This document shows positions 3,523-51,622 of a stretch of DNA of 64,000 bases, one piece after another. Origin of the DNA: Ilex aquifolium (taxonomy: Eukaryota > Streptophyta > Magnoliopsida > Aquifoliales > Aquifoliaceae). Location of the stretch: assembly GCA_951799425.1 (NCBI GenBank), contig OX637396.1, positions 42,585,901 to 42,649,900 of the forward strand, given 5' to 3'. Under the pieces are notes generated by a model. It saw only the letters and a program-made list of their open reading frames with translations, made no database searches and was not told where the DNA came from. The stretch's first letter is position 1. Each line of letters begins with the position of its first letter. The position numbers and the translations under genes were made by a program.

Positions 3523-3531
3523 AAAATATCT
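3523..3531 (+). promoter_or_regulatory. Evening element upstream of the PRR gene
   Basis: The sequence AAAATATCT is an exact evening element, the site bound by LHY, CCA1 and REVEILLE MYB factors. It lies 577 bp before the chosen PRR start codon, between the MITE cluster and a CT-rich leader-like tract. PRR9 and PRR5 promoters are established targets of LHY/CCA1/RVE8, so position and identity fit. An ABRE-like ACGTGGC lies about 15 bp upstream at 3504-3510. Function is inferred from motif and context. Confidence 0.65.
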
Positions 3532-3582
3532 ACCTCTCTCTCTCTCTCTAATAATCTACTACGTTCCCTCCTCTCTCTCTGT

Positions 3583-3643
3583 GTGGGCCCACCCACTCTC
3601 TGGAGGACGATCAATGACCACAACATGTTCCCGCCGGACCCAC
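3583..3643. promoter_or_regulatory. Two class I TCP-type motifs in the PRR promoter or leader
   Basis: GTGGGCCCAC at 3583-3592 is a perfect palindrome containing GGNCCCAC on both strands. A second GGACCCAC is at 3636-3643. Class I TCP proteins bind this consensus. The pair is 465-525 bp upstream of the PRR start codon and may be close to the transcription start, which I cannot place. A short motif of this kind can occur by chance, so function is only suggested. Confidence 0.45.
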
Positions 3644-4107
3644 ACACTATAACCGATTCTGGCTAAAATCAAAATCAAAATCAAAATGGGTGACGAGAAA
3701 TGCACCAGCTCATCTTCATCAACCAAAAGCCAATGGCTACCCACCTTTTGATAAGCTCCTTCGACTAGCTACGAGACTTTTACACCAGATTTATTACTCA
3801 TACATAGACACACACACAGAGACAAGAGAGAGAGAGAGAGTCTGTCCATCGTCATAGGAAGGAAGGAAGACTGTGTGGATCGATCGATTATGATCCACTA
3901 AGTAGTTTAGCGGTTTTCCACTTTGTAGATAGTTTGGTTTTGTCCAAAAATTATTGCTGACAGACAACGAAGGAGAAATGGATTTTGCTGGACCTACTTT
4001 GTTTCTACGTACTACTGTTTCAACTTTTGGCTGACCACAAATTAGGGCTTTTGTTTTGTTTTCGGTTTGCTTATTATTGGAACGTTGTGCTTCTTGGATC
4101 ATCGAGG

Positions 4108-7100
4108 ATGTGGAAAATAAGTGAAATAGTGTCGAGCGGCGAAGAAGAAAGGATGGACATGGAACTGAAGAAGGAAAATGAGGAGAAAAAGAATACGAAC
4201 AAGAAAGAAAGCTCGTTATCGGATATGAGTAAGCGGGAGAGTTATCTTAATCTTCCTCGGATGCTTCTTAGAGTTCTGCTGGTAGAAGCAGACGACTCCA
4301 CTCGTCAGATCATTGCTGCTTTGCTTCGTAAATGCAGTTACACAGGTGCTTTCCTCCTTTTTATTTTTTATTTTTTTTGGTGCTTCTTTCTTTTTATCAA
4401 GAAGTTTTGTTTTTGTGCTTGCAATTGGGTTACAAATGAAAAATCAATCTTGTTTAGGTTGGCTGGCTAATAGGGAGCGTTTGACTTTCGACTCCTAGTA
4501 GCCTTGTGGACTGTTCCTCTTCTTATTTTAGTTTTCGTATTTTTCTTTACATTTCAGTTTTCTTAACATACATGGTCTGATGATCAATGATAAAGTTGCC
4601 CAAGAGTTTGAATAATTATGACCAACTTCAGCATTGTCCCTGATTGGTCTCATGCCATAGACAGCAAGAGCATCTGAGGGTCATTCTCATTCATTGGGGG
4701 ATTAAACGTGTGAATATTATGATACTTGTTCTGTTTGACTGGGTACGGAGTTGGTTTTGATAAGAGTATGATTCATGTAACAGCACAGTGACCTTGCACA
4801 TATTAAGTTATGAACAGCTCACCTGAGTGATTAGACTGCTATATATTTTGTAGTTTGGTTTTAATTTCCAATAATTTTCGTTTATTTTGGTTGAACATAG
4901 CCATGCTTGATCAATAGAGATGTCTATCTGCTTCAGATGTCCCTCTTGTGTGTGCTTATCCCAGCTAGTGTTATGGATGGTATAATTCCAGACTCTAATG
5001 ATGTTGTGTTTCCATGTGAATGTTTGCCAAATACCATATACAAGATTTCATTTTATTTTATATTTTTCAAATGGTTTCTTCACTGTCATTGCTACCTTGA
5101 TTCAATCCTCCAATCAACAAGGTGGATCAATTTGAAAACTTAAATGTGTGCTTTATTGTGATAGAATTTTCTTCTTCTTGTTGGAGAACCATTTTACCCT
5201 TGCAATTTTTCAATCCACAAGTCCTGTTGTCAACACCCAATTGTTTCTTATGATTATTTTGTTCAGCAAATGAATACAAGTTATCACATGGGTTATGACA
5301 TCTTGAACTTGTGAGGGCTTGGGCTTCTGGAACTAATCACAAGTACTATGTTTGCTTGAGCAGTTGCTGCTGTCCCTGATGGTTTAAAGGCATGGGAGAC
5401 ATTAAAAAGGGGAACTGACAAGATAGACCTCATATTGACGGAAGTGGAGTTGCCATCGATCTCTGGATATGCGCTTCTCAACTTAATTATGGATCATGAC
5501 ATTTGCAAAAATATTCCAGTTATCAGTATGCTGTCATGACCAAATATTTACTGTTTTTCTGTTTTATCAGTTCGATATTTGACAGTACTTGATTCTGGGC
5601 TTACACAACTCTTAAATACTTGTGATCATGCAGTGATGTCGTCTCATGATTCAATTAGTGTGGTCTTGAAATGCATGTTAAAAGGCGCTGCTGACTTTCT
5701 CATTAAGCCTGTGAGGAGGAATGAGCTGAAGAACCTATGGCAGCATGTTTGGAGAAGACAAATGGTATGCTTCATTTTCGCACTTATCTTTTCCCATTTG
5801 TACTGTGTTTTGGTTCTGTTTATATGATTCAAAATGGAACCTTGATTTGAATAGCAAACTGCTGGGCATGTTCCTCACAATATAACAGCTGCAAAACGCG
5901 AAGTTGAAGCCGTCTCTGAAAACAATGCTTCAAGTAATCATTCGAGTGATTATCTGGTTTCTACCAAGAAAATGAATGAATGCAGTGAGAAAGGGAGTGA
6001 TGCTCAAGTGAGTATCGATTCATCTTTTAGAACTAAGTAAAGAAGTACAATTTCTCTGGCATATATCGTTTTGAATCTATTGATGCTAGGAATGCTGTTT
6101 TTTTTGAGTTTTTGCATGGAAATTTTCTGCTAGCGAGTGTTAAGATCTTTGGTGTACGTCTCTTGTCAATGCAATGAAACAAAGGAGAGTAACTACCTTT
6201 TAGTATCTGTTTTCGAGTGGTTTAGTGCAGAATGATTTAATCTATTCTGGACTTGGATTGCACAATTGACCATGAAGGAATTTAGTTTTCTTTTCTACGT
6301 ACATTCCCAGATCAATGTTGTGATGTGTATATGGAGCCACTACTATATTGAGTAAAATTTTTCTCAGATTAGGTTGGCTTCATGAAGTTTTACAAAGATT
6401 GCATGTTTTGTCACCTCTTGTGCAGAGCTCTTGTACAATGCTTTACTTGGAAGCTGAGGATGCATACGTGGAAAATATGCAGGGTTTGTCACAGATAAAT
6501 TTTGAAAGAGCATCATCTGATGAAAGCAATATAGCAAGGCATGAAGAATGTGGAGAATTAGTTGAGAAATTGCTTACGTCTAATAATGAAACAGGAGGTA
6601 TGTCACATCTCTTGTTTTCCTTCCGGTGCTAGTATTGCACTAATCATTAGTCTACCATTTATCAGCTAGGGCATCTGAGAAAACGATTTTTTACAGGAAA
6701 ATCAAGTGTATCTGGATCAGATGTTGTTTCCTGCAATGAACCTTATAGTACAACTGGATTCAGATCGGGAGAAGACCATACATTGAATACAAATGCAGGT
6801 GCGTGGCTAGAAAGTTATGGAGACTACAGAAATATCATTGGTGAGAATGACAGGTGCACTGATGAACTCATTGAGCCCTCAAGTGAAGCCATTGACTTGA
6901 TCAGCAAATTTGAATACTGCCCAACAGACATTGCTGGATGTTCTGGCAGTGTTGCTCCATACTTAGAACTTTCTTTGAGAGGATCCTATCCCAGTTGCTC
7001 AAAAGATGTACGGACTAACCAATGGCATACTCTACACCACTCCAACGTCTCTGCCTTTTCACGGCAAGTCACTCTTTCAATAATCTTAGTACACTCATAT

Positions 7101-9184
7101 AGTCATATCTGGATGGTGCTGAAGTTGAGATTTGAAAAAGGCAACATTGGGTTATTTTTTTTCAGAGTCTGCTTTCAATTGTTTCTCACTGCCTTTTGTT
7201 TTATTGTAAAAGTGCACGTGTTATACACTTATTGAGGATCAGTGTACCAAATAAAAACAAAACAAAACAAGTGGACTGTTGGTGTAGTGCCATCGTGTCA
7301 GTGGTGATGGTAATAGGGTAACTGTTCTTATGGTGGAGCGGCTGTCTAACATTAAAGTCAGTAGCCTCCGCACAAGTAGCGTAGCTGGCAATGAATATAG
7401 TTGTGGACCTGTGGTGATGACAATAATGGCAAATATTATGTTATGTCAATGAAGAATATATTTTGCCCAATATGTTGACCTCTATATATGTAAATTTATA
7501 CATGTATTTTGCTCTATTGTCTTGCTTAGATGTCTGCAGACTCCATAGCAGTAATATGGTTGTCAATGAAGATGGTTATGGAGGTGACAATGATGGTAAA
7601 GATTGTGTTGTGTCGATGAAGTATATTTTTTTACCCAATATGCTTACCTCCATGGCCTCAACTGTTTATATATTTTTATCTGTATTGTTTTGCAAAATGT
7701 CGTGTTGTTTGGTGTTATCAAGAGCATGTCTTTTTTTTTTTCTTATTCCTTCCTGGATGCTTTATTACCTGGTTTTATTCTTCATCTTAAAGGTTTAAAT
7801 ATGTAATTTCAATGCATGCACCCAAAGCAAGGTTTGTGTTGATGTCCTCACTGAAATATTCAATTCATCTGGTGAAACAAGATTTTGTGCGGTTAAGTGA
7901 CTCAATTTTAAATGCCACCTGAGAGTGGAATTGTAATTAACTCTTCGCTTCTATCAGCAGGTATGATAATAGGAAGACTCTGCAACCACTTTTTCCAACA
8001 TGGGCCGGTAATTGTGCTGAACCAAAGGAGGTTGCAAGTACTGATCAATTGCCTCAAAACTACTCTGGTGTATATTTGTCACATAATGCTGCTTTGAGTA
8101 GTAGTCAGGAAAACATGACCACTACGGTTGGCAGCCAATCTAGACAGAGTAAAGCAGCATTTCCAGGCTCTGAACTTAGTTTCATTCCTACCACTCGGGA
8201 CAGGTTTGATAGTTTGTGTGCCTACCATGGTCACATGTTTCCGCCCATACTTCATACTCAGTCAGTGTTTCCCCCAGTGTGGAGCCCCAAATCAGCTGGC
8301 CAGCTGGCCCCTTTGCTGATGAGTGACTCACTTCATTCTGTTTCTGAGATTAACAACTCAATACAAGGTAATCACACGTTTGATGAAACTATCAACCACT
8401 CTGCCGGCCAAACTGTGCAAGAGGAAGATATCAATGTGGAGCCGGCAGAAGTATTGAGCCCTGGTCTGATTGATGACAGTGGCTTTTTTGATGGTGTCAC
8501 AAGTAACCTTACCAACGGTGTGTGTGAAAACATGTGCGATACAGTTGATGGCAATGCCACTCCAGCTGCATCAGTTTCTAGAGGCACTATTTCTGAGGTT
8601 GCTGTGAATGACAGGCATCTCCTTGTTCAGGATGAGCTGAAAAGAGTGGATTCTCACTGCTCCACTCAAAGGGAAGCAGCTCTATTAAAATTCCGTTTGA
8701 AACGAAAAGATCGATGCTATGAGAAGAAGGTATGTTCTTCATTATAATTTTTGAATTGGCCATGTGACATGACATCATGGATGGATGAACGATTTTAATG
8801 ACAGAATTCTGTCCCAGGCATATTTGTGATACTGATTTGGTATTAATGCATCATGCTACGGTGATCAAGTGCCATCACTACTCTCGTGGTGATTTCATCA
8901 TCAACTTTTCTTTTTTATTGGATTAGTGAAGATAATGGTGTGGAATTCCACATGTAATTCTTATACTGATATGCATACCTGTGGTTGATTGTGGTGAAAA
9001 CATCATATGCAAGGCATGATCCATGTATATAGATATTTTAGATTCTTCAATGTGAAATTTCCATCCACAGGTTCGATATCAAAGCAGGAAAAGACTTGCA
9101 GAGCGGCGTCCTCGTGTGAAAGGACAGTTTGTACGTCTGGTGCAAATTGGATCTTCTCCCACTGATTTTGATGGCGGCCCGTGA
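4108..9184 (+). CDS. PRR9: Pseudo-response regulator of the PRR9/PRR5 clade (circadian clock), 8 exons
   Basis: This gene encodes a nuclear clock repressor that acts on LHY/CCA1-type genes through the day. Exons are 4108-4345, 5364-5525, 5634-5764, 5855-6007, 6426-6597, 6697-7063, 7961-8729 and 9071-9184; spliced they give 701 residues with one open frame. The receiver domain starts near [16 protein letters not shown] and ends near [19 protein letters not shown]. Where true response regulators carry the phospho-acceptor Asp, this has Glu ([10 protein letters not shown]), the hallmark of pseudo-receivers; the Lys of IKP is kept. A CCT domain spans the last exon junction ([21 protein letters not shown], then [20 protein letters not shown]). 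The start at 4108 fits the family N-terminus; an in-frame ATG at 3985 is less likely. The junction 7063/7961 needs a GC donor. Details such as [13 protein letters not shown] favour PRR9 over PRR5. Confidence 0.92.
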
Positions 9185-9962
9185 GACTTGCCAACGCTCT
9201 TTTGCTTCATTCCTTCTATGGAAGGCTGTAAAAGTTTGTTTTCCTACTGACTTGGTAGCATTTGTAGGAAGAAAATGTGCACAGGTTGTTTGTGTGTGTT
9301 TGTATAATGAGAGGTAATATATAGAAGCGTGTAATGTAGTGAGACAATGAACGGGAAACGCATGCAAGTTTCTCTGACGCAGGTGTAGGTTTCAACTTGA
9401 TGTTTTTCATGTTGAGTTAAAGGGGTAGTGTTGTGATCATTTAAGTGTGCTGATCCTGCCTCTGTTACTTTTGTATATGTAGATATACATTGTTCAATCT
9501 TCATGGAAGTGAGTGGGTTGGTTGGGTTAAAATATATATTGATATTCGAATATGTAAAAGGTATTAGTTAGATTGATGAATAAACTCTTACCCTTGTTGG
9601 AAGGAAATTCTAACTTATTGCACCGATTCCAAAATGAAGGAAAGCATCTTCAAGGAAATTGTTGCATGGAAAGTAATGGAAGTTAGTTCAATATGGCATT
9701 CATACGTGTGCTTTTGGAATTTGGATACCAGTGGCCTGGTGACGAAGCATGTCCAACTGATACAAGGCCACGTACTGACTAACCCACGCAGCAGCCGAAA
9801 CTTGAAGATTTGCCTTTTTTCTTGCGGTGCGAATGAGACGCCCTTTCTTTCGGCCTCTTTCTCTTTCATCGTTTCAATTCTACTTTCGGCCGCTCACAAT
9901 ATAATATAATAAAAGCTCCTAAATAAAGAATTTCAGAATAACAATTAATAGTATTATTAGTG
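9185..9962. other. 3' flank of the PRR gene, no further gene seen
   Basis: This stretch should begin with the PRR 3' UTR. The remainder is ordinary mixed sequence. An open frame at 9634-9909 has no family features I recognise and no splice context, so it is not called. Confidence 0.5.
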
Positions 9963-10673
9963 CAGTCAAAATTCGACACGACACGATTAATCGACACGAA
10001 TTAAACGGGTTTGGGTAATATCTTAATGGGTTTGGGTGATAAACGGGTTGACACGTCAAACACGTTTAATAAACGGGTCGTGTTCGGGTGAGACCTGTTA
10101 AACCGTTTATCACACGTTTACCCGTTTAAATAAAATTAATATAATAATAAATTAATAATTATTTTAAAAAATTAGCAAGAAAAAAAAAAGTAAAAAAATC
10201 AATACAAAAAAAAAAAAAAAAGGTATAGTAGTAGTTCAAAGACAAATGAGGGGAGATGGGGAGCACTTCAAAGACAAAGGCAAACCAATGACTTTTGTTT
10301 TTGTCCCACATTGTAAAATGAGGGGAGATGGGGAGGGTTGAGTTGTCTATAAAAGGCAATGACCTATTTCTTTCTTTTTTTAAGCCTTCAAGTCTAATTT
10401 TTATGAGATTTCGCTAAAAAATTCTCTTTTTTGAGGTAAGTACAATTGACAATAAAAAAAAAGTAGATTATTAAAATTTGTTAATATAATTTTTTTTCAA
10501 ATTAAATGGGTTAAACGAGTCATGTTATGTTACCCGTTTATTAAATTGGTCGTGTTCGTGTTGAGATTTTTCACCCGTTTATTAAACGTGTCGTATACGG
10601 GTTTACATATTTTTAATCTATCACCCGTTTAACCCGACACGTAACCGTTTAACCCGACACGTTTGACACCCCT
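9963..10673. mobile_element. Degenerate hAT-like non-autonomous element rich in ACACG/ACCCG repeats
   Basis: The right end reads CGACACGTTTGACACCCCTA, so its complement begins TAGGGGTGTCAAACGTGTCG, a familiar hAT-type terminus. The left end near 9963 is a diverged version (GTCAAAATTCGACACGACAC). Both subterminal regions are packed with ACCCGTTTA/AAACGGGT and CGACACG motifs in inverted order. Matching 8-bp target duplications were not found. The middle is A/T-rich with no coding capacity. Confidence 0.6.
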
Positions 10674-10686
10674 AAGTATGATGAAA

Positions 10687-10874
10687 GAATAATACTATTT
10701 GGACCTAAAAATGAAAAAAATGATTTAATTTGTTGACATAATGATGTGGTTTCATAGGAATCATTGGATCAACACCAAGTTCTAATGTTTGATGGGATCT
10801 ATGGTGAATCCAAATGTCACAGTGAATTAGGTCAGTAAATCATATTAGTAAATTAAGTCCCAATAGGATTGCTC
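10687..10874. mobile_element. MULE-type MITE, 188 bp, perfect 9-bp target duplication
   Basis: The element begins GAATAATACTATTTGGAC and ends with the imperfect inverted copy GTCCCAATAGGATTGCTC. It is flanked by an exact 9-bp direct repeat, ATGATGAAA, at 10678-10686 and 10875-10883. A 9-bp duplication points to Mutator-like transposase mobilisation. Similar copies are at 13510-13692, 13709-13889, 29237-29400, 29490-29658 and 52569-52740. Confidence 0.8.
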
Positions 10875-10883
10875 ATGATGAAA

Positions 10884-11398
10884 ATGATCGCCCTTAGCCA
10901 GTAGCCACCCATTTTTGATCAATCATCGGCAACATATCGTTTCACTACCCTATCAAATTTGGATCTTCTCCAATCAACAACGTTTTAGTCATCCATGCCA
11001 AATCCAAAACTGGGATTCAATAATGAAATTTATCTAACCCATATATAATTGAATTCTCTAATATTTGTTTTTTTTAAACTTCCTTCACCAATATTTGTTT
11101 CAAACAATTTCAATCCACCTGACATACCTATAGATTTAGAGTGTTAAACTGTTATAACTCTATAATCTATCATTTAATATTACAACCGAACGATCCATCA
11201 CCTACTTTATTTAATCTTGCCGGGCAATAGCTTATCACATTTGTCATCAGTGCAAGTTTATCTTTTCCCTTTTTTGACCTAAAGTAGGGTACAAGTGCAT
11301 AAGCCATAAAGATTTTATCGGGTTTATCTTTCCAATCTTTTATGTAAAGAGTAATGACAAAAGTAAAGCAAATTAAAGGCAAAGAAAAAGGGCCAAAA
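10884..11398. other. Intergenic stretch, nothing recognised
   Basis: AT-rich sequence between two small transposons. No coding frame with recognisable features, no RNA gene and no clear repeat structure was seen. Confidence 0.5.
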
Positions 11399-11407
11399 AA
11401 AAAAAAA

Positions 11408-11739
11408 GGTTAAAAATATTTTTGGTCCTTAAAATATGTATTTTTTCTTCGTTTAGATTTCATTATATCAATTTTGTCGATTTAGTCTCTAAACTTTTCA
11501 ATTTGTGTCATTTTGATCCCTACATAGACAAACTCTTAAGTTTTTGACAAAATGATGGCATTTGATATTGTCTAAAAAAATGGCACGTAGTCACTTCGGT
11601 CAAAAAACTTAATGAATTGTCTGATTAGGAATTAAAGTAGTGCGGATTAAATACTTTAAAGACCAAATTGATAAAATTAAATAAAGAGGACTAAATTAAC
11701 AAAATATATATATTTTAAAGATAAAAAATACTATTAACC
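11408..11739. mobile_element. Small long-TIR element, MULE-like, 332 bp
   Basis: The ends GGTTAAAAATATTTTTGGTC and the inverted ATACTATTAACC continue inward as a diverged inverted repeat of over 60 bp (TTTTGGTCCTT/TTTAGTCTC blocks against GGACTAAATT/AAAGACCAAAT). Flanks are AAAAAAAAA and TAAAAAAAA, compatible with a 9-bp duplication but low in complexity. It lies about 300 bp upstream of the NHL gene. Confidence 0.6.
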
Positions 11740-12016: not shown

Positions 12017-12037
12017 CTTTATAAAAACCATGTTTCC

Positions 12038-12694
12038 ATGGCAGAAGAGCTCGGACCAGAAAAGAACCAACCACCGGCCAAAATGAGCGAGGACAAGCAC
12101 GGCGAAGGTACCACCATGGCTTCCCATGTAGGCCGTGCCTTGTGCTCATGTATGGTTGTCTTCCTTTTGCTACTAGGTATCACAGCCCTGGTAGTGTGCT
12201 TAGTGTATCGTCCCCACAAGCCAAAGTTCACAGTTGTCAGCGCGGCCGTCTATTATCTCAACACCACGGCCCCACCGTTCCTGTCCGTCACCATGCAGTT
12301 CACCATCGTCACTAGAAACCCCAACAAGCGAGTCTCCATCTTCTACGACCAGCTTTCAGCTTTCGTGTCGTACAAGAACCAGGCGATCACGCCGCCAGTG
12401 ATCCTGCCACCTCTGTATCATCGAAAGCACAGCACGGTGGCGCTGTCGCCGGTACTGGGCGGGGCTGCAGTGCCAGTTTCGGTGGAGGTGGCAAATGGGT
12501 TGGTGATGGACCAGACTTATGGGGTGATTGGTTTGAGGCTGGTTTTGTTAGGGAAGCTGAAATATAAGGCTGGGGCTATAAGGACCGGGCATTATGGGAT
12601 ATATGTGAAATGTGATATGTTGGTTGGGGTGAAGAAAGGCTTTGTGGGCCAAGTGCCTTTGCTTGGATCTCCAGAGTGCAAAGTTGATATATAA
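12038..12694 (+). CDS. NDR1/HIN1-like (NHL) LEA_2-family membrane protein
   Basis: A single-exon gene for a 218-residue protein of the NDR1/HIN1-like family, small plasma-membrane-anchored proteins linked to defence and abiotic stress. A short basic/acidic N-terminus is followed by one membrane segment at about residues 36-57 (CMVVFLLLLGITALVVCLVY), then YRPHKPKF and a LEA_2 domain. Family marks are RNPNKRVSIFYDQ at about 91-104, YHRKHSTVAL at about 128-137, and the end GQVPLLGSPECKVDI. Length is normal. Start choice is open: ATGs at 12083 and 12116 are in frame, the latter in an excellent context (ACCACCATGGCT), and an overlapping out-of-frame ATG at 12030 opens a frame that stops at 12084-12086, overlapping the second ATG. 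It is a neighbour of, but has no clear tie to, the clock genes. Confidence 0.88.
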   Translation: MAEELGPEKNQPPAKMSEDKHGEGTTMASHVGRALCSCMVVFLLLLGITALVVCLVYRPHKPKFTVVSAAVYYLNTTAPPFLSVTMQFTIVTRNPNKRVSIFYDQLSAFVSYKNQAITPPVILPPLYHRKHSTVALSPVLGGAAVPVSVEVANGLVMDQTYGVIGLRLVLLGKLKYKAGAIRTGHYGIYVKCDMLVGVKKGFVGQVPLLGSPECKVDI

Positions 12695-13500: not shown

Positions 13501-13509
13501 TTATGTATT

Positions 13510-13889: not shown

Positions 13890-13898
13890 ATTCCTAAA

Positions 13899-24300: not shown

Positions 24301-26585
24301 ATGGAGAGGCTTCATGGACCCATCAATACCTGTGTATGTTAGCTCGATTAGTACTTTGTTATCCTTTATTGGAATAGAAGAATGGATGCATTTACTACTT
24401 ATAAGGTTATATATAGCTAGCATTCAATGTGAGGTGCTGATATCCTTATAGATAACCTTACCACCTGTTTGTGCTTCTTTCTCTTGTTAATATTCCATTC
24501 TCGTTCTCGTACATTAATTCTTTCCTTTCTTACTACTGTTAATGCTTATTAGAACAAGAAACTGATCTACCCCCAACCAATCCATATGACAGTGTCTGTC
24601 CATACTCCCTACTCTCTTTTATCTCTCTGTATCTTTTGCTCACTTGAGTTTTGGTGAGGAATCACTTAGGCCTAGAAAATTTGCTCTTATGTTCTTTTCC
24701 TTTCTTCACATCTTTCTATTCTCTACACTGGTCTTGCAGATCTTCGGGGAGGAGTATATGGAGGTGGAGCCCCTACAACAAGAAACTACAAATACGTTGG
24801 GTATGTGCAGTACTTATGAGCAATATCTGAGCTCAGACAGCTTGAATTTTGAAGATCAGGAAGAAGAAACACCACCGCACCTGAGAAGTCCAAGTTTGGA
24901 AGACAAATTTCCGTTCCTTCAGATGTTACAGAGTGTGGTGGAGTCGCCACCTTGTTCGCCTTTCAAAGAACCCAGCTTTCAGATGTTGTTGAGATTACAG
25001 CACCAGAAGAAGCCATTGGACCAGTCTCACGACTATTTTTATGAAATGAACACTACTAGTAGCACTCGGATGGTTCCGGCATTGGACCCTGAAAGCTGCG
25101 TTACTCATGACGTTTTGGATCCGCATTCGCCTGTCAAATCCGGAACCAGGGAGTACCGGCACCCACATTCGACTTCCTCTGCATGTGGTGTGAGCTCCGA
25201 GTGCAACAAAAAACAGCCCACCAACGCCGAAGGCAAGGGTTGCGGGGAGCTGAGAGATTCAGAGTTTGTGCGTGCTTTGGCTCAGCCGATGAACAAGCGG
25301 GAAAGAAGTAAAAGGAAGCGAACTAGGGCACCCAAGAACAAAGAAGAGGTAGAGAATCAGCGGATGACCCACATTGCAGTGGAGCGCAACCGCAGACGGC
25401 AAATGAACGAGCATCTTAGTGCACTTCGGTCCCTCATGCCCTCCTCTTACGTTCAAAGGGTATGGAATTAATTTATGCAGAGTGTTCCTTAAGTCTCATT
25501 CTTCTATTGATATACTAGTAGTGTTTCTTAATACTGATTTTTTTATAAAAAAAAAAACACACACACACACAAGGGTGACCAAGCGTCCATAATTGGAGGA
25601 GCAATAGACTTTGTGAAAGAACTGGAGCAATTACTTCAGTCGCTGCAAGCCCAGAAGAGGAGTAAATTCGAACGGGGATCGAGCGGTGACACCTCCTCCG
25701 GATGCTCCACGGCTGCAGGATCATTAATGGACATCAACGGGAGTAGTGATTGGAAGGACGAAGAGCGAGGGAGGAGGGCGGAGAGCGAGTCGAGGGTGGC
25801 AGATGTAGATGTGAGTGTGATTCAAAACCACGTCCACGTGAGCTTGAAGATAAAGTGTGGAAAGGGGAGGAGGAGTGGTCATGAGCTAGTGAAGGCCATT
25901 GTTGCCTTGGAAGACTTGAGGCTTACAGTGCTGCACCTCAATATCACCACGTCTTCCTCGTCCTTGTTGGAAACATCCTTTCATTACTCTTTCAGTCTCA
26001 CGGTACGTACGGTATTATCCATCATTACAGCTTCTGCCCGTTCCTTTCTTTTCTTGCTGCTTTCTCTCTGTCTCGAGTCAACCATTTTGACTCTAAAAAA
26101 GTTACCCTACCCTACCCTACCCTACCCTACCCTACCCTTACTTACTAATGCTGTACTACTACAACAGTAAAGTAGTGTAGACCACCAGTTCAAAAAAAGT
26201 AGCGTAGACCAGCATAAGCACGAGAGTGCTTTCTTTTCATTCAAGAAAGGAATCCAAAACCCTAACTCTGGTTTACAACATAGGAAGAATATTCAATATT
26301 ATAAGTGTAATGTTATTAGGGTCTAAAAAGAATTAATATAATTGGTTAATATAATAATGTATAAATAATTAATAAATTAAATTAGTTTTTTGATTTCTAA
26401 TAACATTACTCCTACTGGTATTATAGATATAGTCATGATAATTAATGAAGTGGGTTTGAGGAATTAAGTTTGTAATTTTGTAAATGCATGGTGATGCTCA
26501 GATGGAAGATGATTGTAAGCTTGGATCAGCGGAGGAGATTGCATCAGTAGTTCACCAAATATTCAGCGTCATCTACGGCAGTTGA
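24301..26585 (+). CDS. Group Ia bHLH transcription factor (bHLH57/67/70-like), 4 exons
   Basis: Exons 24301-24333, 24740-25459, 25574-26002 and 26502-26585 all join in phase 0 and give 421 residues. The tiny first exon encodes [11 protein letters not shown], matching the MERxxGxIN start of this subfamily, and the GT at 24334 is a good donor (GTATGT). The bHLH domain is split by intron 2: [20 protein letters not shown] (residues about 218-237) then [14 protein letters not shown], followed by [20 protein letters not shown]. The basic region carries the H-E-R residues for E-box binding. A C-terminal ACT-like part includes [10 protein letters not shown] and ends in [18 protein letters not shown]. 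Group Ia also holds SPCH, MUTE and FAMA; the sequence is closest to bHLH57/67/70. The (CCCTA)n repeat lies in intron 3. Intron 2 has an unusual acceptor, an A-run then (AC)n. Confidence 0.9.
26102..26139. repeat. (CCCTA)n microsatellite in bHLH intron 3
   Basis: Seven near-perfect pentamers. It is a 5-mer, not the 7-mer CCCTAAA plant telomere repeat. Confidence 0.9.
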
Positions 26586-33760: not shown

Positions 33761-36266
33761 CTACTTGTAAAATTCAATGACCCAAAAATTACAGGCAAAA
33801 CATTCCAAGCTTATGCCTTTAAATCCAGCCCCTGCTGCCAAGGCCAGAAACTCATGCTCTGTTCGCTCCTTTCCTCCTTGATTTTGAGTCATCATGACCA
33901 GATCAATTTGGCTAGTGTTTTTTACAGAGGCACTACTATCGGGTGTCACCGGTAGGATTGCCTCGACAACAATTACCTTTCCATTGTCTGGTAGAGCTTT
34001 GTAGCAGTTCTATAGCAACTTCAAGCAGTGATCGTCACTCCAATCATGAAGTATCCACTATCAAATGTTGTCAGCGAGTAAGGTGAATGCATATTAAGTT
34101 GAGAAAACTTCACACCCTGGATAGCATCTCAAGGCATACCAAAAAAATTAAATAAAATGGTTATAGTGATACAGGAGCAATGCTAGACACTTCTCTTTTT
34201 TAACGCTAGACACTCCCTTCATCCCCACATACATCTTGTTATTATGTTCACTTTCATATATCCAAGGAAAATGTTTATCAGCTTGCCATTTTCTTTTTAA
34301 AATACCTCTACCAAATTAACTTGCATAAGATCAAAGAAATTCAGTAATGAATAAAATTTAAAAATTTAATGCACACCACCCTATTGGTTTGAAATTACAC
34401 AAATTACCCTTAGAAATGGAAAATACAAATGTATAAGTGTGTGCGTGTGCATACATTTTCCCTCTTTCCCTCGTGCATATGTGTGCAAAGAGGCAGAGGG
34501 CGTCTCGCTTAGAGGAGCACTGACAAGGGTTAATTCTTGGGAGGGGGCGTGAAGGGAGGTGTTGCGTTTGTTTACAAGCGGGGATAATAATTTTTCAAAG
34601 CTCAAGAAATGAAATGCATTTTACTTAATCTCAAGGATAGCTTCTATAATTTACCCTATACTTCAGCATGACGAATATTTGTACATTAGTATTCGTAAAA
34701 GGCGTATACATAAAATATCCTTTGACATCATGTGTTCTAGCAAGATTTGAACTAACCTTCATAAATATGGCATCTCCTTTTGGAACGCTTTCAAACATAT
34801 CTCCCCCAACATGTTCCACTCCTGCATTAAGGGCTCAGTTTACATTTTAGAGTGTGGCCGAAAATTTGCAACATAACAGGATGTACACTTGAAAAGAACA
34901 ATCTTGGAACTCGCTTTGTTTTTCGTATCAGTTTGCTATCCAAATTCATTGATGACATTGTTGAAAATTTAGTCGTTCACTAAAGGGATTAGAAAAGACA
35001 ATCGCCATAAAATTTTCAAGATGTGATAACTATTTTCAAGGATTGAACTACATGTGAGTTTTAATGAAGTAAACCAAAGCCATCCTTTCAGGTAATCTTT
35101 ACCATAGCAATATAATCGACCTAGTTTATTTCTTTTTAATGAAAAATTTGAACAAAGCCATTAAAGGCTTGACAGTAGACAGAAATGCCTTATAATTTAT
35201 TATTCGAGTGATGACTTAATCTACAAACAGTGTGCTTTTGCATACAAATGCCACAAAGATTGAAAACGAGTTGCTTTCGTGAGATGAAATCATTAATCTA
35301 TCAGAAACAAGAGAATACGTAAAATGAAATCATACCAGGATAGGCAGGGGCATGTGGCAAGTCAAAATTAAAGCCCTTAATAGAGGGGTATTTAGATGTA
35401 ATCATGTTGAGGGTGACTCCCAGACCACCACCAACATCAAGTAATTGCTCAAGGTGCTCGAAGGCCCCGGTAGCAATCAAGGATTTTCTTGACGACTATA
35501 GTAGTGTGGTTGATCATTGCCTTATTGCAAACCTCATTGAACCTTGGGTCCTTGCCAGGGTAATCAAATGCATGCGTTCCATGGACCCTGTCAAATGGAA
35601 CGCCACCTTCAAGAACTGCATCTTTCAGTTCGTACCTGGGAGTGAGTGCAAGTAATTTGAATAACACCATTAATTGCTTATTTGGAATCTAATTTGCAGA
35701 CTCACTTAATATCATTGAATGAGATCCACAATCAATCTAAATATACAAATGCATTAGATACCCAAATTAAATTAAATACATGTAATGTATATCAGCGGCA
35801 AAAAGAAGAGAAATTCATCTGGGGAATGGATGAGAGAGAATTGACAAACCCACCAGCTGCCATGAAGACTTTGTCTTGAAGCAAGGCCATCAAGGGGGCG
35901 AATGATACTCCGTCTTGTTTACGAACAAAGTATTTGGCGACAGGAGCCAGTCCGTACAGCCTATGAGCACCGCCATCAACGACGGAGAAAGTGAGCAGAG
36001 AATGGGTGGCTAGGAGTCGAAGCATCCGATCCAGCATGAGCGGTGCGTCGGGATTCTTAGCTGCTGCAGGCATTCTGGAAGCGATCTCTGAAGCAGAGAG
36101 TTGGGCACCTGAGCCTGCTCCTGCAATGATCTCAGCACGTCGAGCTGGTTGGCTGCGTGCAACACCATGGGCAGCGCTAACGAGTTCGCCAGTTGCAACG
36201 CATACGAGCAGTTCTCTTCTTCGTTTTCCTTTGAACAGGCTATTTTTTAGCTGATGAAGTCTCCAT
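33761..36266 (-). pseudogene. Caffeic acid O-methyltransferase (COMT)-type pseudogene, 4 exons
   Basis: The homologue methylates phenolic hydroxyls of lignin or phenylpropanoid intermediates using S-adenosylmethionine. Exon remnants on the minus strand are about 35854-36266, 35336-35635, 34757-34821 and 33761-34057, the usual COMT layout. Matches include [51 protein letters not shown] (SAM motif I), [33 protein letters not shown] with the catalytic His, and NQGGKERTEHEF. Lesions: TAG at codon 9 and a frame change before KENEEENCSYA; one base missing near 36131-36136 between QLDVL and EIIAG; one extra base near 35461-35470 before [14 protein letters not shown] at 34010-34012 in LL-stop-NCYKAL. 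Splice sites are mostly intact, so decay is fairly recent. It cannot make a full enzyme. Confidence 0.87.
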
Positions 36267-41593: not shown

Positions 41594-41615
41594 CCAGCCT
41601 CCACTGGTCCAGTAG

Positions 41616-43948
41616 ATGGACCTTTACTCCTCTGGAAACGAACTGGTCATTAAGGTCATCTTTAATATACGCGTAGATAGAATTTTCATATATAGCTTCT
41701 TATTTTTGGTCTTTCTCCACCATTTTTTAAAACCTTAACTCAGTCTCTTTGAGTCTGAGTGATGGTCGAATCGATTAGAACGAAGCAAATTCTCAGCTGT
41801 GATTAATTTCCTATATGGCAGACAAGGAAGCCATATACAATCACCAAGCAACGCGAGCGATGGACTGAAGAGGAGCATAATAGGTTTCTAGAAGCCTTGA
41901 AACTCTATGGCCGAGCTTGGCAGCGCATAGAAGGTTCCACTTCTTCTGCTTCACTTCTCATTCTTTTGTTGCTTAATAGTGTATTTTATTTTCATCTAGC
42001 TATCTATTTGTCTATTATTTTAATTTAGAGCTGTAAATTTATTTCAGATTACTGATTGGTCGAGGATTATTATTGTCCTTTACCCCCCAAAATCCATGTT
42101 TTTTGTTTTATCGGCTGAATGAATCTATTGCCCATCTCCTTTTTGGAGCAACCTCCAATATTCTATTTCTTATTAACATTATTCTCATAATTGGAGATCT
42201 GTTCCTGCTCTTCTTTTTTGTTGTCTTTGTGGTGCACAGAACATATAGGAACAAAGACTGCTGTGCAGATCCGGAGTCATGCTCAAAAATTCTTTACAAA
42301 GGTCAATCAGTACCTTCTCACTTCATGCTTGTTGGCAGATTTATTACTGTTACTAGTCTTATCTCCAGCTACACCGTCAACATCTTTGCCTTTATCTGCA
42401 TCTTTAAAAGTTTGAGTTGTGTTAGATCACTTGTACCTTTGTTTTATTTTCCATTGTAAGTACTCATGTTCCTTGTTTTGGTGTGTCCCAGTGTATTTAA
42501 ATAACATTCTAAGAACTGTTGTTGGTATTCACTGTTCACAGGGAGCAAACTTTTTTTTTTCCCATTTTCTTTGTTGCGTTCTGGCATGCATATAACTTCA
42601 AAGTTCAAACCTATCTATTTTATTCGAACTTGGGATGTATTATGCTAAAGACACTTCTACAGCTATCATGCGTGACCAATGATGATCCCAATTGAGAGCC
42701 AAGCAATAGTATAAAGATAGTACATCTTTATGCTTTTGAAATGTTATGTTGGGTTGACAAAAGAGAGGTTGGGAACTTGAAATGATAATAACAACCTTGT
42801 GCAAATAACATCTGGAGTTAGGTCTCTTGCCAAGTCCATCCATTCGAGAACAGCTTGAGCAAACTGTTTAGTGGCCTTTTTGGCCTAGAATATTTATCCT
42901 CTCGAAGATATGATATGTAATACATAGTAACCAGGAGTGCTCAACACGTAAATAGAATTCCTACCACATACAGCATTTTGATTCAGAAAGGTAAAACTAT
43001 TCGTGCATGTTTAACATTGAATGCATTTGAAGTGTTTATAGTCTATCTAAAAAGGAAATAATGTTCATCCTCCGTGTATTGTTGAGTGAGTCAAAATTCG
43101 GAAAATCATGCTAGAGCTGGGTTCGTAAAATTCATTTTCCACTTTTCTCCTTACTTTTATCTCCTTTGTCGCCAAAGTAGTGATGTAGAAGATTGCTTGT
43201 CAATGTCAACTTTATTAAGTACCGTCAGTTCATGGATACATTCTTCTATGGTTCTTGGAGAAGTATATTATTATTTTCAAGTAAAAAGAGAAGATATGAA
43301 AATCAGTAGGTAGGATGACTAACTGATGTAGAACAGTTGGCAGCAAATTAATTGGAGTAGGCTGACCGTGGTATTGTTCACCATGAGTTTCTTCAGTTTT
43401 GGGCCCAATTCCATTGTTTAGGCCCTAACAACTCCGTCTTTGCCGTTTTAGGAAAGTTTTTGGAAATTCATAATAAATAAATGGAAATTCTGCATTCAAT
43501 AACGTTAGTTTTGTTAAACTCTAGACGACACGTGCTTTTATGTTAACTAGTTCACACATGCATTGCATGTGAACTATCTTGAGTATAAAATATTTGTGTA
43601 TTGAAGTTTTGGAATACTTTCAAAAACAATTAATCAACTCTATATTCTATATCAGTAGAAACCAACTCCTATGAGTCTGTTTACACTTGAAGCACATGTA
43701 TTGTAACTATTTCATTATCTTTTCTTCATATTTGGGATAAGAGTAACTGTGAGCATTTCTTGTTAAACATATATTATTATAGTACAAAGGAATTAATAGA
43801 TGTACTCTACTTAAAGTTGTAATCTTAAGAGATGCTTGAACTCATCGTTAGTTAATTGAAGAATTAGTCAAATTTCAAACTCTATAAGCAACATATTCCT
43901 TTTGTTAAGTGGTTTTAGCAATATGTGTGCACACACACACACACACAC

Positions 43949-44003
<55 letters not shown>

Positions 44004-47000
44004 GGATGTTTAGCTAAGAAACTAATAAAACTTTATGTTAAAATAACGATTATGGAGATTGTCGCTCCTATTTGATGTAGAAACTCATAAGAAGTCAAGA
44101 AACTTGTCTATAAAAGTTGTGACAAAAAACACAACTTTAGCTTCACAAACCATAACCACTAAAATTAACCGGTGGAAGCCAAAATGAACCAAAATTTCTT
44201 ATTACATGCATTAAGTATATACCCGAATTGTCTAACTATACTAATATATATACCTAAGCATAGATAATTTCGTCTTATGAGTATTATAAGTGTTATCGCA
44301 AATAAAAGATTTCATCTAATGAAAGTTTTATCAACAAATTGCTTTTAAATTTAAACCATATCCACTTTCACTTGTCAAATCAGTGGAAGTGCACCATTAC
44401 AATAATTTTATAACCTTAATTGTTTTTAGTTTTAAGTAGATATGCACATACTGACAGTGTCTAAAGATGAGATTGTTATTCTTACTTTAATATAAAAATT
44501 TGGAGTACTTGGAAGGCCATTTGTCATTTGAGTTAAGCTCTTGGTTTTGGTTTGAGTCGAACCATGTATAAAATCATATTATAATAGAGAATCCAAGTTA
44601 AAGTGAAAGGACAAGCAAACTGGCATTGAAAATGTATCACCCAAGAGGAACTTTGAAACAAGTACATAGGAAGCATGCTCACCATTCACCACATTTGGCA
44701 TACTCACCATCAGGGGAAAAAAAAAAAGACACCAAAAAATCAATAATGTGACACTAAATCCAGTTGTTAAGCTTAAAAATAAAACAATAGACCAAATCAA
44801 AATAGTAAAAATATCAACATAAAGCAAACCAAGAGACTAAAAATGCTAAAAATATTAAACCCCGGGATTTTTACAAGGAAAAAAGGTTTTTCAGAACTCA
44901 ATATCAATCTTAATTTAGTACTTCTACAATCCTTGCAACCCATGAAATGAACATGATGGGAGAACCAACAGTGAGAGAAAGAGTCGAGGTTAACCATAGA
45001 ATATGGAGAAAAATTCTTGACCTTTTGATTGTGTGTATATTGAAGATCGCATCAAACCCCCACAATGTTGCAAAGTATATACCAATCTTGGCTCTCTTTG
45101 TTGCTTTAGATTGTGTCTGCGATTGCTCGATTGGTCAATGTTCAAATTGATTGGATTTGTCATTATCTTTTGAAGATCTCGAAACAATCCTTGTCATTAT
45201 CTTTTGAAGATCTCAAAACTATCTTGCATAGGAAGGATGTTGGCAAACGTAAAATCCAGGCGATGGTAACCAAAGAAAATAATGGTAAAAGGCGAAGAGC
45301 TTGGGATGGGAGAGGAAAAGGTTTGTCTAGGCATTAGTGTTAATTATCTATTCATTCACGTAATTAAGTTCATAACAAAAGAAGATTAAAAGACATAAAT
45401 GATATAATTTTCGTTACACGAATAATTATGAGCTGGCGGAAGGAAGGAGAATATGGAAGAGATGCCAATGTATTGCCAGAATTGAGAGGTTTTTTTTTAA
45501 TGCTTTGTAACATAAGGAAGACATAAGGGCTGTGATTTTCATTGAATATAAAATATGGATAAAAATGACCTAATTATATTATTTAAAAGAAAAAGAAAAT
45601 CAAAAGTTTTGAAGGATAACTAACATTTAGAATTCAATTTATATTTATTTATATTTAGTATAGACATAGATATAGATTTATTCATTACACTTGTAGATAT
45701 AGATAGATATCTACACTAATCAAATATAATAATAATTATTGTGAAATATTTAATGACCCATTTGATATAATCAATGTCACAAGTGTTTGATATTCTAATT
45801 CTAATGGTAATCTTGGCATTTCTAAAATTTTGGAGGCTAAAAGTGTCCAAATAAAGTTTTTTATGTATTTTGACATTTTAAAGTAGTATAGATTAGTTAA
45901 ATTGAAATTTTCTATTTTTGGTAAATTTCGTATAATTAGGGATTTTGATTCTATTATGGGGATGATTAGGGTTTTACTTGTTCCTATATATATTTCTATA
46001 TGTAATACAAATTATTTAGTTAATAATATACTTTTTTTAGAGTTATTCTCTTGTTCTTTTCTGTGGATTTAGTATATTCTTGTCCTTACACTGAGAGACG
46101 GTGATCTCTTTATGTCCCTTCATTCCCGTTGCGTCACTAACTTTCGCCCAACCAAAGGGTTTTGTGCACTGATCATACTTCAGATTGAGAGCTAAGCACT
46201 GCAGTAAACACTAGTAAATATGTTTATGCTTTTCAAATGTTGTGTAAAGACCAGTTTAAGGCAATTGTGCAGCAATAAAAGCTTGGTTGACAACTGCCAG
46301 GTTGGAGATTTAAATCCTAGGGAGGCCACCTCTGTAAATAATGTCACATATCTGTCTCTAGGGGTGAACCCCCCTGGCATGCTTAGCCACGAAAATTGTT
46401 TTTTTTTCTATTAGACTTAGTCATGAAAATTATCATTGTTTATCTGCACAACAGGTAATTGGAGACAATTTACAACTCTTTTGTTTTGATAGTGATTATA
46501 TTATAAATAACAACCTACGACTCTTTTGTTTTGATGGTGATTATATTATAAATAACAACTTACAACTCTATACCTTTAAGTTCACCTCTTAATTCGTTGA
46601 AGTCTATGTGTAGGTGCATTTGCACATAGCATGATTGATATCAAATCCACATTATGAAGCAGCATACCTAATAGGAACATGGTTCTTTTTCACATTTTTT
46701 TCTATTGGTCACTTTCCCTTCTCAAGAGGGTGAGTCTATACTTATCCCTATTAGACTATAGAGTATGGAATCCTCCTTTTAAGGAAGGGATATGAAAGAG
46801 GGTGCGAGAGTGTGATCTATTTGTTGGGGCGTATTCAATAAATTCTAAAGCTTAAGGTCATAGAAAGAGGGTGCTTGACTGTTATCTATTTGTTGGGCCT
46901 ATTATGTAAATACTGAGGTGATAGGAGTAGTGGTTGTGAATGACCCCTATGTTGTAGGTTCAAATTCTTAGGAAAGGTGAAAAGACTAAATTGATATATG

Positions 47001-50000
47001 CTAACTGGAGAGAGAGCCTACTTCTGAATTTGGCATGTCAATAATACCCTATGATTTGATGCGGAGCCTTCTGAGGCGCTTTGCATAGGGATGCATTGGC
47101 ACGCTAGCGGCAGCACATTGCTTGGCGTGAAGGCAAGGGAGTTGCCGGTGAAAACTGTTTGTTTTGTGTCTTTGAGATACTCCTTGACATTGTCATCTTA
47201 GATATTGTGGCACTCCAGTGGTATTTTCTCAAATTCAATAAAAGAGAGTGAAAGATCTCACCAGAAAAGCTATTGGGTTCCTCTATTGCTCTTTATAAAG
47301 AATACCTTGGAAAAAGTTGCACATAATATAAGGTTTTTTTTGGGCAAACATTATAAAGCTTGTCTTTTGGGAAAAAAGTTGCACATAATAAAGGTTTCTT
47401 TTGGGCAAACAGTATAAAGTAGGTAAATTGCTTATGCTTCAACTGTAATTTTTGGAAACTTAAGTAGCTCCACCAACTGGGAGAGCATTTATGCTTGTCT
47501 CCTCAAATACATGGAAAATAAAAAGGTTTCCGATTATTGTGTTAGAGGGAGTGTTATGATTGGCCCAAGGCCAATGATGATGTCTACTATTATGACTTGA
47601 AATTTTTTCCATATAGCTGCCAAACGAGTATTGTGATTGCTCGAGTACTTTGATGTCTCCTATGTCACTTAGATTTTTCCCCATAGGTGTTATAATGGGT
47701 TGTAAGATGGCACAAGGGTGCAACTGTACTACCTTCAGTGCCAATCTAGGCACTAAGTGAACTTGTCCATGGAGCAAGATTATGGCTATTTGGCGAGGTT
47801 TCTGGAGCTTCAATGTGGAAAAACCTTTTATTGTGTAAACCTCATTTCAGTGTGTTCGTGTTGTGTCATAGCTTGTTCGTGTCATGCTGTATTTATGTCT
47901 TGTGTAAGTGCTTCTTAGTTGACAATGATGGCTATTGTAAGAAAATTCGTAAAACAATAAATGCTCTTCATGTAATTTCAGCAATTGTAATGACCAGGGA
48001 AATTTCACCTTTCAATATTTTTGAATCAGTTCTTTCATGGGGTTTTCTAGGCTGGCATAACCAATTAAGTTACTCATTGTCATTGGCATTATCCCCAGTA
48101 TTTCATAATACTATTTGCTGTCTTCAATTATAGAAGAAATCTGTCTTATCAAGAAATTATAGGACACTTAATTAGCTGTTCCAACATATGCATGTGAATA
48201 AAATACTGACATGGTTCCCATCAAAAAATTATTGACATGGCCAAACTTAAATGCCATTGCCACCTTCTGGGTCCATCTTGTGACGAACTTTCCTTTTTCT
48301 TTATTTAGTTTGTTTAACTGTTACTCTTTCTAACTTAGAGTTGTGAAAGAGAAAAAGTACAAAACATATCCGGGAACAATCCAGTTTTCTCGAAACATTT
48401 TGTTTGGCTACATGATACTGTAATTTCAACATGGAGTGGGAGGATGTCCTATATTAAAGGCTCTCCCTAAAATTGGTGATATCTCTGGGTCTTTCAGAAC
48501 AATGAGAAAAAATGACTCACAAAACAATTATGTGCAGAATGCTAGAGGATTTACAGACAAAGAGAGTTGAAAATTGGGGCGAGGCATTTCATTGTTTAAA
48601 TTGGTTTTATACGTGTAAGATGAAACCTTATTGAGGGATTTTAAATTGTCTAATGTATCAAGGAGAGAAAATTGCTTTGTCTGCTCTTCAGATCATTGAG
48701 GTCACTTCTAAACTTATAATGACCATCAGATCCCTTACCACAGTTTATATAGAACTCAGTGTAGTTGATATAAGAACAGGTGATGGACTCAATCTGACAA
48801 GTGTCTAGAACAGGGTAGTCAATATGACTTGATACCTCATGAGAGATTCACCTGGATTTGATCCATATGCCTGACCTAACATTCTATTATTAGGATAATT
48901 GGATCATGAGGCTGACTATGTGCAGCTGTAAAAGGGTTCATAGCATTTTTATAATTAGAGTATGCTCTAATAATAGGGGTTCTTTTGATCAATTAACTTT
49001 TGTGCCTCTGGTTTCGAAACAAATTCTCGAGTCTTGCAAAAGGAGGGCTGTATACAGATAACCCATTGTCCGTATCCATCCCATCCTCCTAAGTTTACAG
49101 TAATCCTAGACGAGGCTATGATATCATTTTCCTTGTGTTTCCACCTAGACTACATGTAGTCTCTTAAGATTTTCTTTGTGATATATTATGCTTCAGACAA
49201 AGATTTGCAAAGTTCTCTTATCTATTGGATTAGCTTTTTGCTTCTAAAATTATTTTAGTCCGTAAAATTTAATTCTTAATTTGTTTCTATAAACTTCTTC
49301 CAGTTGGAGAAGGAGGCTCTTGTTAAAGGAGTTCCAACAGGGCAAGCTCTTGACATAGAAATTCCTCCTCCTCGCCCCAAAAGAAAACCAAGTAATCCAT
49401 ATCCTCGAAAGACTGGTACAGGAGCTCCTATTTCACATGTGGAATCAAAGGATGGGAAACTATCAACATTAGTTTCTTCTTTGTGCCCTGACGAAGATGT
49501 GCCGGACTTGGAGAAAGAACCACTTTCCAAGGTATATATCTCCATGTATCATCGTTCTTCTTGGTTCTGTTTTCTTTTTCTTTCTTTTTTTTTCATGTAC
49601 TTTTTTATAGCACCATGTCTAATTCTCTTCCTGCATTCTCTGTTATCTTTTCTTATGTTCTTTGTCCTTTAATTCTGAAATTAGTCTTCTTGTTTCTTGT
49701 TCATCAGAAACCTGGTGATGATGAAAACCAAGGAAATACCACAGAAAACCAGGATGAGAATTGCTCTGAAGTTTTTACCCTTTTCCAAGAAACTACCTGT
49801 ACCTCCCTGTCTTCTGGAAATAAAAATTCCTTGCCACCCATGGCGCCCAGCAATTTATGCACTTTGAGGGAGTTTGTGCCAATCTTGAAAGAGGCAATCA
49901 ACCAGGATGAAACAAATGAATCTCACCTTTCCATTGGACCCAATGGAAATCAGGCATTTCAGGGTAATGGCGCAGGCACCATCTCAAACTCGGTAAACTC

Positions 50001-51622
50001 TCGCCCTTCACATGAGAAATTGGTTCGTGGCAAAAGAATGGATGATCTGAACCAGCCTGAAAACTTCAGTTCTTTTTCGACTATTGACATGCAAGCTATC
50101 CAGAACTATCCAAGACATGTCCCTGTGCACATTCTAGATGTGAGTCCGGGAATGAGTCCTCAAAGTGTTTCCCCAGATATGTCGCACCAAGAATCCATTT
50201 TCCACCAAATGAGGAAAGTTGATGGACAGCCCAACCTATTCACAAATCCCGCTGCATCTGCTACTACAGAAAATGATAGAAATGCATCTAGATCCCCCAT
50301 TCATCCATCATTTCCTTCTTTTCATCCGCTTTTCAACCCAATCCCAAACAATCAAGATGACTACCAATCATATCTCCACATTTCCTCCATGTTTTCAAAT
50401 CTTATTGTATCTACTCTGCTACAAAACCCAGCAGCCCATGCTGCTGCCAGTTTTGCAGCTACATTCTGGCCCTATGCAACTGTGGAAAATTCTGCAGATT
50501 CTCCTGCAGGTGCTGCAGGAGGTTTTCCATCACGGCAGATCAATTCTGCTCCTAGTATGGTAGCAATTGCCGCGGCTACAGTAGCAGCTGCCAGTTCATG
50601 GTGGGCAGCCCATGGACTGCTTCCTTTGTGCACTCCCTTTCACACTGGCTTTGCCTGCACTCCTCCATCTGCCACTGCATGTGAAAGACAAATGGACAAG
50701 AGTCAAGCTAGAGCAGCCAACATCAAAAGAAGGGAGGACACTTCTGATCCTGCCTTGCAAGGTCCACATTTGGACCCAGTATACAATGAAGCTTTGCAAG
50801 AATATTCAGCTTCTAAATTACCAATGTCATTGTCAGACTCTGAGGAGAGTGAAGATGCAAAGCCACATACTGGATTTACTGCTGCTGATACTGAGCAAGC
50901 TGCAATGACAACTGAGATTCATGATTCAAACATGACGAAGAGCAGAATACAGGTGGGCCGTTCTTCATGTGGTTCAAACACACCTTCTAGCAGTGAAATA
51001 GAGACAGATGCTTTAGACGAGCACGGGAAACATAAGGAACAGTCAAAAGAACCTGATACAAGTCATCCAATTGGTGACTCCGGTAATCGACGTGGTAAAA
51101 GCTGCAGCAACACAAATGATTCCTGGAAGGAGGTTTCCCAAGAGGTAATTGAAATTTAGTTTATGATTAAAGTCTTGATGATTATATTGCTATTACATTC
51201 ATTGCTACTCTGTGTCATTTTGGATGCAGGGGCGGCTGGCTTTTAAGGCTCTGTTCTCCAGAGAAGTATTGCCACAAAGCTTTTCTCCTCCACATGCTCT
51301 GAAAAATAAGGAGCACCAGAACGAGGCAAATGAGAAAGACAAAGATGCATCAAAGTTGGACCTCAACTGCAAAACATGGGGAATTTCTTCCAGTCATCAA
51401 GCAGTTGAGAAGAGTACATTCTTTAGAGAGAAAGAGGTGGGGGAAGTGGGGCTACTGACAATGGGGCTTGGGCATGGGAAGCTCAAGGCCTGTCGAACAG
51501 GATTTAAACCTTACAAAAGGTGCTCAATGGAGGCCAAGGAGATCAGGGTGGCAAGTGCCCGCAGCCAAGACGAAGAGAAATGTCCCAAGAGATTACGCTT
51601 GGCAGGGGAGGCTTCAACCTGA
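41616..51622 (+). CDS. LHY: LATE ELONGATED HYPOCOTYL / CCA1-type clock MYB, 6 coding exons
   Basis: LHY is a morning-expressed single-MYB (SHAQKYF) transcription factor that binds evening elements and represses evening and PRR genes. Coding exons are 41616-41654, 41822-41933, 42240-42301, 49304-49531, 49708-51144 and 51230-51622, giving 756 residues in one frame. The N-terminus reads [13 protein letters not shown], then [40 protein letters not shown] and [17 protein letters not shown] (the MYB repeat, about residues 14-71, with Ala in SHAQKFF). [20 protein letters not shown] and [17 protein letters not shown] follow. The large exon is Ser/Ala-rich, and the end has [20 protein letters not shown] and [14 protein letters not shown]. 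One gene serves for both LHY and CCA1, as in most plants. Upstream lies at least one leader intron. The third coding intron is 7002 bp and holds a Helitron. Confidence 0.96.
43547..45892 (-). mobile_element. Helitron-like element in the large LHY intron, 2346 bp
   Basis: On the minus strand the element starts TCTATACTACTTTAAAATG (5' TC, preceded by A at 45893) and ends with the hairpin CACATGC-AAT-GCATGTG, then TGAA and CTAG, followed by T (43546). A|TC...CTAG|T with a subterminal hairpin is the Helitron signature, with no target duplication expected. The interior is AT-rich, with (CA)n(TA)n at 43928-44000 and a 34-bp direct repeat (TTGTCATTATCTTTTGAAGA) at about 45157 and 45193. No Rep/helicase was recognised, so it is non-autonomous. 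Confidence 0.72.
43951..44000. repeat. (AT)n microsatellite
   Basis: About 25 AT units, directly preceded by about ten CA units, inside the LHY intron. Confidence 0.95.
45893..49303. other. Remainder of the LHY large intron
   Basis: Intron sequence with partial repeats. A block of about 70 bp around ATTGAGAGCTAAGCA (46183) resembles one at 42690 (ATTGAGAGCCAAGCA), so a repeat flanks both sides of the Helitron. At 47314-47420 two tandem copies of a roughly 50-bp unit (AAGTTGCACATAATA...GGGCAAACA...ATAAAG) occur. Frames at 47460-48133 lack recognised features. No gene was identified. Confidence 0.5.

Follow-up and report, generated by a model that had tools for sequence, protein, structure and literature searches.

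The closest described system is the linkage of LHY/CCA1 with PRR5/9 genes, which the main text of Michael 2022 (PMC9516744) describes from Amborella to Arabidopsis, with at least one such linkage retained in 61% of 123 species and none in the grasses. The number of genes reported there between the two partners is four for CCA1-PRR9 of Arabidopsis, nine in grape, 18 (800 kb) in Amborella, and none in Kalanchoe; linkage is also reported in quinoa, cranberry, camphor, soybean, poplar, and Spirodela, and the LHY-PRR association has been lost in Arabidopsis. The author's proposal is that selection favors the inheritance of a balanced clock (coinheritance, "environmental robustness"). Linkage of LHY with a PRR5/9 gene is therefore already known, having been published in 2022. 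Here, we describe a further instance in holly (Ilex aquifolium), where a PRR5/9-clade pseudo-response regulator gene (PRR) and LHY share a 64,000-bp stretch of DNA (hereafter, the window; C6:42585901-42649900 of the 800-Mb assembly GCA_951799425.1, contig OX637396.1). The window lies within one contig, its right edge 189 kb from the contig end, and has an N count of 0.

PRR and LHY are linked in the holly genome

The linkage of PRR and LHY in the window was confirmed, and both genes are intact. A splice model of PRR runs from an ATG at 4108 to a stop at 9184 through eight exons and encodes 701 amino acids, and one of LHY runs from an ATG at 41616 to a stop at 51622 through six exons and encodes 756 amino acids, neither with an internal stop. 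These end points are exactly those given by the first-pass annotation, made on the letters of this DNA alone, which had also placed the two genes head to tail on one strand; in the models both are on the plus strand, with 32,432 bp between them. In between lie three intact genes (LEA_2, bHLH, and CURT1B) and one broken gene (COMT-like). The bHLH and CURT1B genes had been recognized in the first-pass annotation, and their HLH and CAAD domains bear this out; the bHLH57/67/70 subgroup is that annotation's label. The pair is flanked by PDH-E1alpha upstream and DCL1 downstream.

As in the published linkage, the genes belong to the same two families, sit on one chromosome, and are few genes apart, with three intact and one broken gene here compared with the four of Arabidopsis. 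Beyond the published description, holly provides the flanking genes PDH-E1alpha and DCL1 and, on C5, a partner segment that has probably been emptied, described below; the main text of PMC9516744 makes no mention of kiwifruit, DCL1, or CURT1. Among the literature searched for the linkage, which covers few subscription journals, no other title among the papers listed addressed the same point. The first-pass annotation had proposed an outgroup comparison, and the printed record for grape, poplar, Amborella, and monocots does not refute the linkage (PMC9516744).

No paper was found that names together the Arabidopsis locus identifiers of the neighboring genes. We take the end of Arabidopsis chromosome 2 to carry PRR9, bHLH70, CURT1B, and CCA1 and the top of chromosome 1 to carry DCL1, LHY, and PDH-E1alpha; the neighbors shared with the window presumably agree with this gene order, except that genes split over two places in Arabidopsis form one segment in holly. 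The first-pass annotation had likened the window to the chromosome 2 end. This likeness holds, with four genes between PRR9 and CCA1 (PMC9516744). bHLH70 and CURT1B are probably among those four.

Gene identities and paralogues

The predicted PRR protein combines an N-terminal receiver-like domain (Pfam Response_reg, residues 56-167, E=1.9e-21) with a C-terminal CCT domain (residues 645-686, E=1.2e-15), as expected of the PRR type. The Glu of its LTEVELP motif aligns to the Asp of ISDVHMP in ARR1, which we take to be the phospho-acceptor of true receivers, so that the replacement characteristic of PRR proteins is present. Of its seven introns, six are GT-AG and one is GC-AG. The GC-AG pair belongs to intron 6, 7064-7960 (ACG|gcaagt).

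The LHY protein carries a single Myb repeat (residues 24-67, E=1.1e-13) with SHAQKFF, a proline-rich PPPRPKRKP motif, and a long C-terminal region, the features of LHY/CCA1 proteins. The name LHY rests on these sequence features, not on a tree. All five LHY introns are GT-AG; the third (42302-49303) spans 7,002 bp and holds a TA-like repeat, compared with 85-306 bp for the others.

The whole assembly was searched with the LHY, PRR, CURT1B, and DCL1 proteins at E values of 0.001 or less. No second LHY copy was found, the other matches being to the Myb region of RVE-type genes. No other locus matched past residue 110 of 756, which supports LHY rather than RVE type, and the match to the RVE1-type copies on C8 and C20 was limited to residues 10-54. 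The window copy of CURT1B is the only one found, and a full-length match to DCL1 occurs only in the window, other matches being 37-61% identical at most. A genome search with the bHLH protein found other loci matching in parts only, at 27-71% identity.

Two more PRR5/9 loci were found, at C1:61.19 Mb and C18:27.26 Mb, and the LHY search gave no copy near either. The clade names used for PRR and Myb loci (PRR5/9, PRR3/7, RVE6, and RVE8) are provisional assignments from motifs and are not tree-based. Identity of the window PRR to the C1 and C18 copies was 61 and 52%, respectively, in exon 1, and in the receiver exons 2-3 it was 74 and 80% to the C1 copy and 63 and 77% to the C18 copy. Its receiver was 43-64% identical to the copies at C1:52.4, C18:19.7, and on C9 and 51% identical to those on C14 and C17. 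Synonymous divergence (dS) between the C1 and C18 PRR5/9 copies was 0.43 (574 codons), compared with 1.61 (589 codons) and 1.33 (619 codons) between the window copy and those on C1 and C18, the latter two values exceeding 1 and thus approaching saturation. On this basis, C1 and C18 appear to carry the products of a recent duplication, and the window copy appears to be a far more ancient paralogue. PRR3/7-type and RVE6-type genes are in the same order on C1 and C18, but the PRR5-type genes are oppositely oriented relative to them.

RVE6-type Myb genes were also seen at C6:41.35, C1:60.09, and C18:25.71 Mb, each 1.1-1.5 Mb from a PRR5/9 gene; because C1 and C18 look like recent duplicates, this proximity counts as two independent cases. 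Separately, TOC1-type receiver pieces at C14:21.87 and C17:15.90 Mb are nearly identical, with a CCT match near the C14 copy and none listed near the C17 copy.

A likely partner segment on C5

The genome holds one other copy of PDH-E1alpha, 88% identical, at C5:130230. An untyped Myb gene lies at C5:1.30 Mb, and a gene of the same family is found on C6, 1.5 Mb short of the chromosome end. On these two markers, the start of C5 is likely the duplicate partner of the C6 end. At the spacing of C6, the 30 kb of C5 beyond PDH-E1alpha would hold PRR, LEA_2, and bHLH, with CURT1B at the edge and LHY and DCL1 further out. PRR, LEA_2, and bHLH were absent from these 30 kb, in which only the PDH-E1alpha end aligned with the window; two short tblastn matches there (bHLH, E=0.97; DCL1, E=0.039) were counted as noise. 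In the genome-wide searches, neither LHY, CURT1B, nor DCL1 had a copy on C5, and for PRR a CCT-only match at 37.9 Mb was the only one on C5; the absence of LHY and DCL1, expected outside the 30 kb, rests on these searches. Matches to bHLH on C5 were 27-60% identical, none of them near 130 kb (nearest, C5:223576, 27%). Collectively, these results suggest that clock genes and non-clock neighbors were lost together from the partner segment.

Upstream elements of a putative repression loop

The 2 kb upstream of PRR contain one Evening Element (Table 1), the first base of which is the position at which the first-pass annotation had begun its entry. Within 2 kb upstream, the C1 and C18 PRR5/9 copies have five and three such elements, respectively (1,807 bp read for C18); as a background, one is present in 6.7% of 2,000 pieces of 2 kb drawn at random from 14 loci of the assembly. 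Binding of LHY to the PRR upstream region is thus plausible from sequence. No Evening Element was found within 2 kb upstream of LHY; a shorter AAATATCT lies at -2512, and two CBS elements (AAAAATCT) are present upstream. No perfect G-box occurs within 5 kb upstream of LHY, and the nearest one downstream of its start is at 43529, in intron 3. Action of PRR on LHY via a G-box is not supported by these 5 kb. PRR and LHY may repress each other in this plant; the evidence in cis is weak, and the sequence is compatible with such a loop without demonstrating it.

Neighboring genes

The other features of the window are listed from left to right in Table 1. The PDH-E1alpha frame also matched the human PDH-E1alpha chain 2ozl (E=2.1e-5), and earlier exons of this gene were seen to the left of the window. 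The bHLH gene shows an ACT-like domain (E=3.7e-4) under its cut-off. DCL1 was identified by its match to the DCL1 chain 7eld, which scored 543.6 bits versus 242.8 bits for DCL3.

The pieces of the COMT-like O-methyltransferase fall in different frames with at least two switches by our reading; this is probably a pseudogene, base errors being the alternative. Two exon-like pieces at 36.7-37.7 kb resemble a CHCH-domain (MIX17-like) protein, a putative family assignment. No third exon was found by motif in 37.4-39.4 kb, and the pieces are likely a relic. Between LHY and DCL1, gag-like open frames on the minus strand (55050-56929) are probably a long terminal repeat element; a Pfam scan of two pieces of this stretch named no transposon family.

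Table 1. Features of the window in order of position
Feature	Position	Strand	Evidence or remark
PDH-E1alpha (plastid), open frame with last coding exon	514..810	+	Pfam E1_dh, E=1.1e-7
Evening Element AAAATATCT	3523..3531	+	Lies 585 bp before the PRR start codon
PRR5/9-clade pseudo-response regulator	4108..9184	+	Splice model; Pfam Response_reg and CCT
LEA_2 (NHL-like), one exon	12038..12694	+	Pfam LEA_2, E=1.9e-5, 25.5 bits (cut-off of 25.4 barely exceeded)
bHLH gene, at least 3 exons	24758..26585	+	HLH, E=1.4e-8
CURT1B-like, 6 exons, 178 amino acids	30009..33318	+	CAAD, E=5.6e-29
COMT-like O-methyltransferase, frame-broken	33764..36246	-	Pfam Dimerisation, E=9.3e-9
LHY	41616..51622	+	Splice model; Myb domain; sole copy found in the genome
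DCL1, 3' part, extends past the window end	58671..64000	-	RNase III, PAZ, and dsrm domains

Explanations for the linkage

Inherited microsynteny quite probably explains the linkage of PRR and LHY in holly. An ancestral flowering-plant segment would have held PRR5/9 and LHY with few genes separating them, flanked by PDH-E1alpha and DCL1, and the linkage would have been kept in this lineage because one homoeologous block was retained and the other lost. As in Arabidopsis, LHY would act through the Evening Element upstream of PRR, and PRR would act at the LHY promoter; such action in trans does not require the genes to be close. Since the clock genes and their neighbors seem to share one fate on C5, loss of a block would suffice, and selection specific to the clock would be needless here. 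Several points weigh against this explanation. The C5 result is one case over 30 kb, in which one deletion, gene-by-gene loss, and rearrangement are indistinguishable; C5 was named as the partner on two markers only (PDH-E1alpha and the Myb gene at 1.30 Mb); and the absence of LEA_2 from C5 covers those 30 kb only, no genome-wide LEA_2 search having been made. Furthermore, the main text of PMC9516744 argues that the linkage has outlasted many polyploidies, its genes coming nearer to each other, to a degree beyond that expected from plain fractionation.

Joining of PRR and LHY by misassembly is extremely improbable, given a single contig free of N, intact gene models, and PDH-E1alpha and DCL1 flanks that match the top of Arabidopsis chromosome 1. 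A chance origin of the linkage was set aside because its conservation across flowering plants is already published. In a simple uniform-placement model, the probability of any of the three PRR5/9 genes lying this near LHY is 2.8e-4, and that of any of 64 sMYB x PRR pairs doing so is 6e-3.

Selection for coinheritance, in which linkage is favored because it keeps together PRR and LHY alleles that function best as a matched set, is a possible but clearly less likely account. LHY and the adjacent PRR both persist on C6, neither with a detectable C5 copy, as this account would have it; however, CURT1B and DCL1, which to our knowledge are not clock genes, show the same C6-only retention, and the C1 and C18 PRR5/9 loci persist without LHY. 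The linkage occurs in 61% of 123 species over many clades and is nearer in younger lineages, which speaks for coinheritance, but about 39% of those species are without the pair, and grasses make up only 13% (PMC9516744). The same source describes RVE4/8-PRR3/7 as the other linkage of these two families. That sister linkage is not retained at the holly loci found, where the RVE8-type gene is on C15 and the PRR3/7-type genes are on C1, C9, and C18, the Myb gene at C5:1.30 Mb being untyped; its absence also speaks against coinheritance. A wider version, drawn from the RVE6-type gene near each PRR5/9 locus, appears doubtful; in it, the linkage would be what is left of a clock block with both sMYB branches, and LHY-PRR5/9 and RVE-PRR might descend from one ancient sMYB-PRR neighborhood under coinheritance selection. 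Among the three PRR5/9 loci with a nearby RVE6-type gene, LHY is present only on C6.

Regulation in cis, by a shared enhancer or chromatin domain coupling the rhythms of PRR and LHY, seems quite unlikely. The closeness of the two genes is all that favors it, while three intact genes and one broken gene stand between them. In the main text of PMC9516744, CCA1 and PRR9 are 4 h apart in phase and distinct in expression pattern, from which the author argues against co-regulation, and the pair is unlinked in grasses. In the Hi-C literature naming these genes, no claim of a shared contact was found in titles or abstract openings among the matches listed. The first-pass annotation had left both co-regulation and coinheritance as meanings of the linkage; because the linked genes differ in phase and expression, co-regulation is disfavored (PMC9516744), and coinheritance stays a hypothesis.

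The window is one added instance of the linkage, for which the flanking genes and a partner segment that was probably emptied are also described. The non-clock neighbors, in sharing the fate of PRR and LHY, serve as a control that weighs against a clock-only reason, and accepting selection on the clock pair would first call for a control of this kind with neighboring non-clock genes. If selection does link these negative-feedback clock partners, the pair would be a rare conserved neighborhood of unrelated, differently timed plant regulators.

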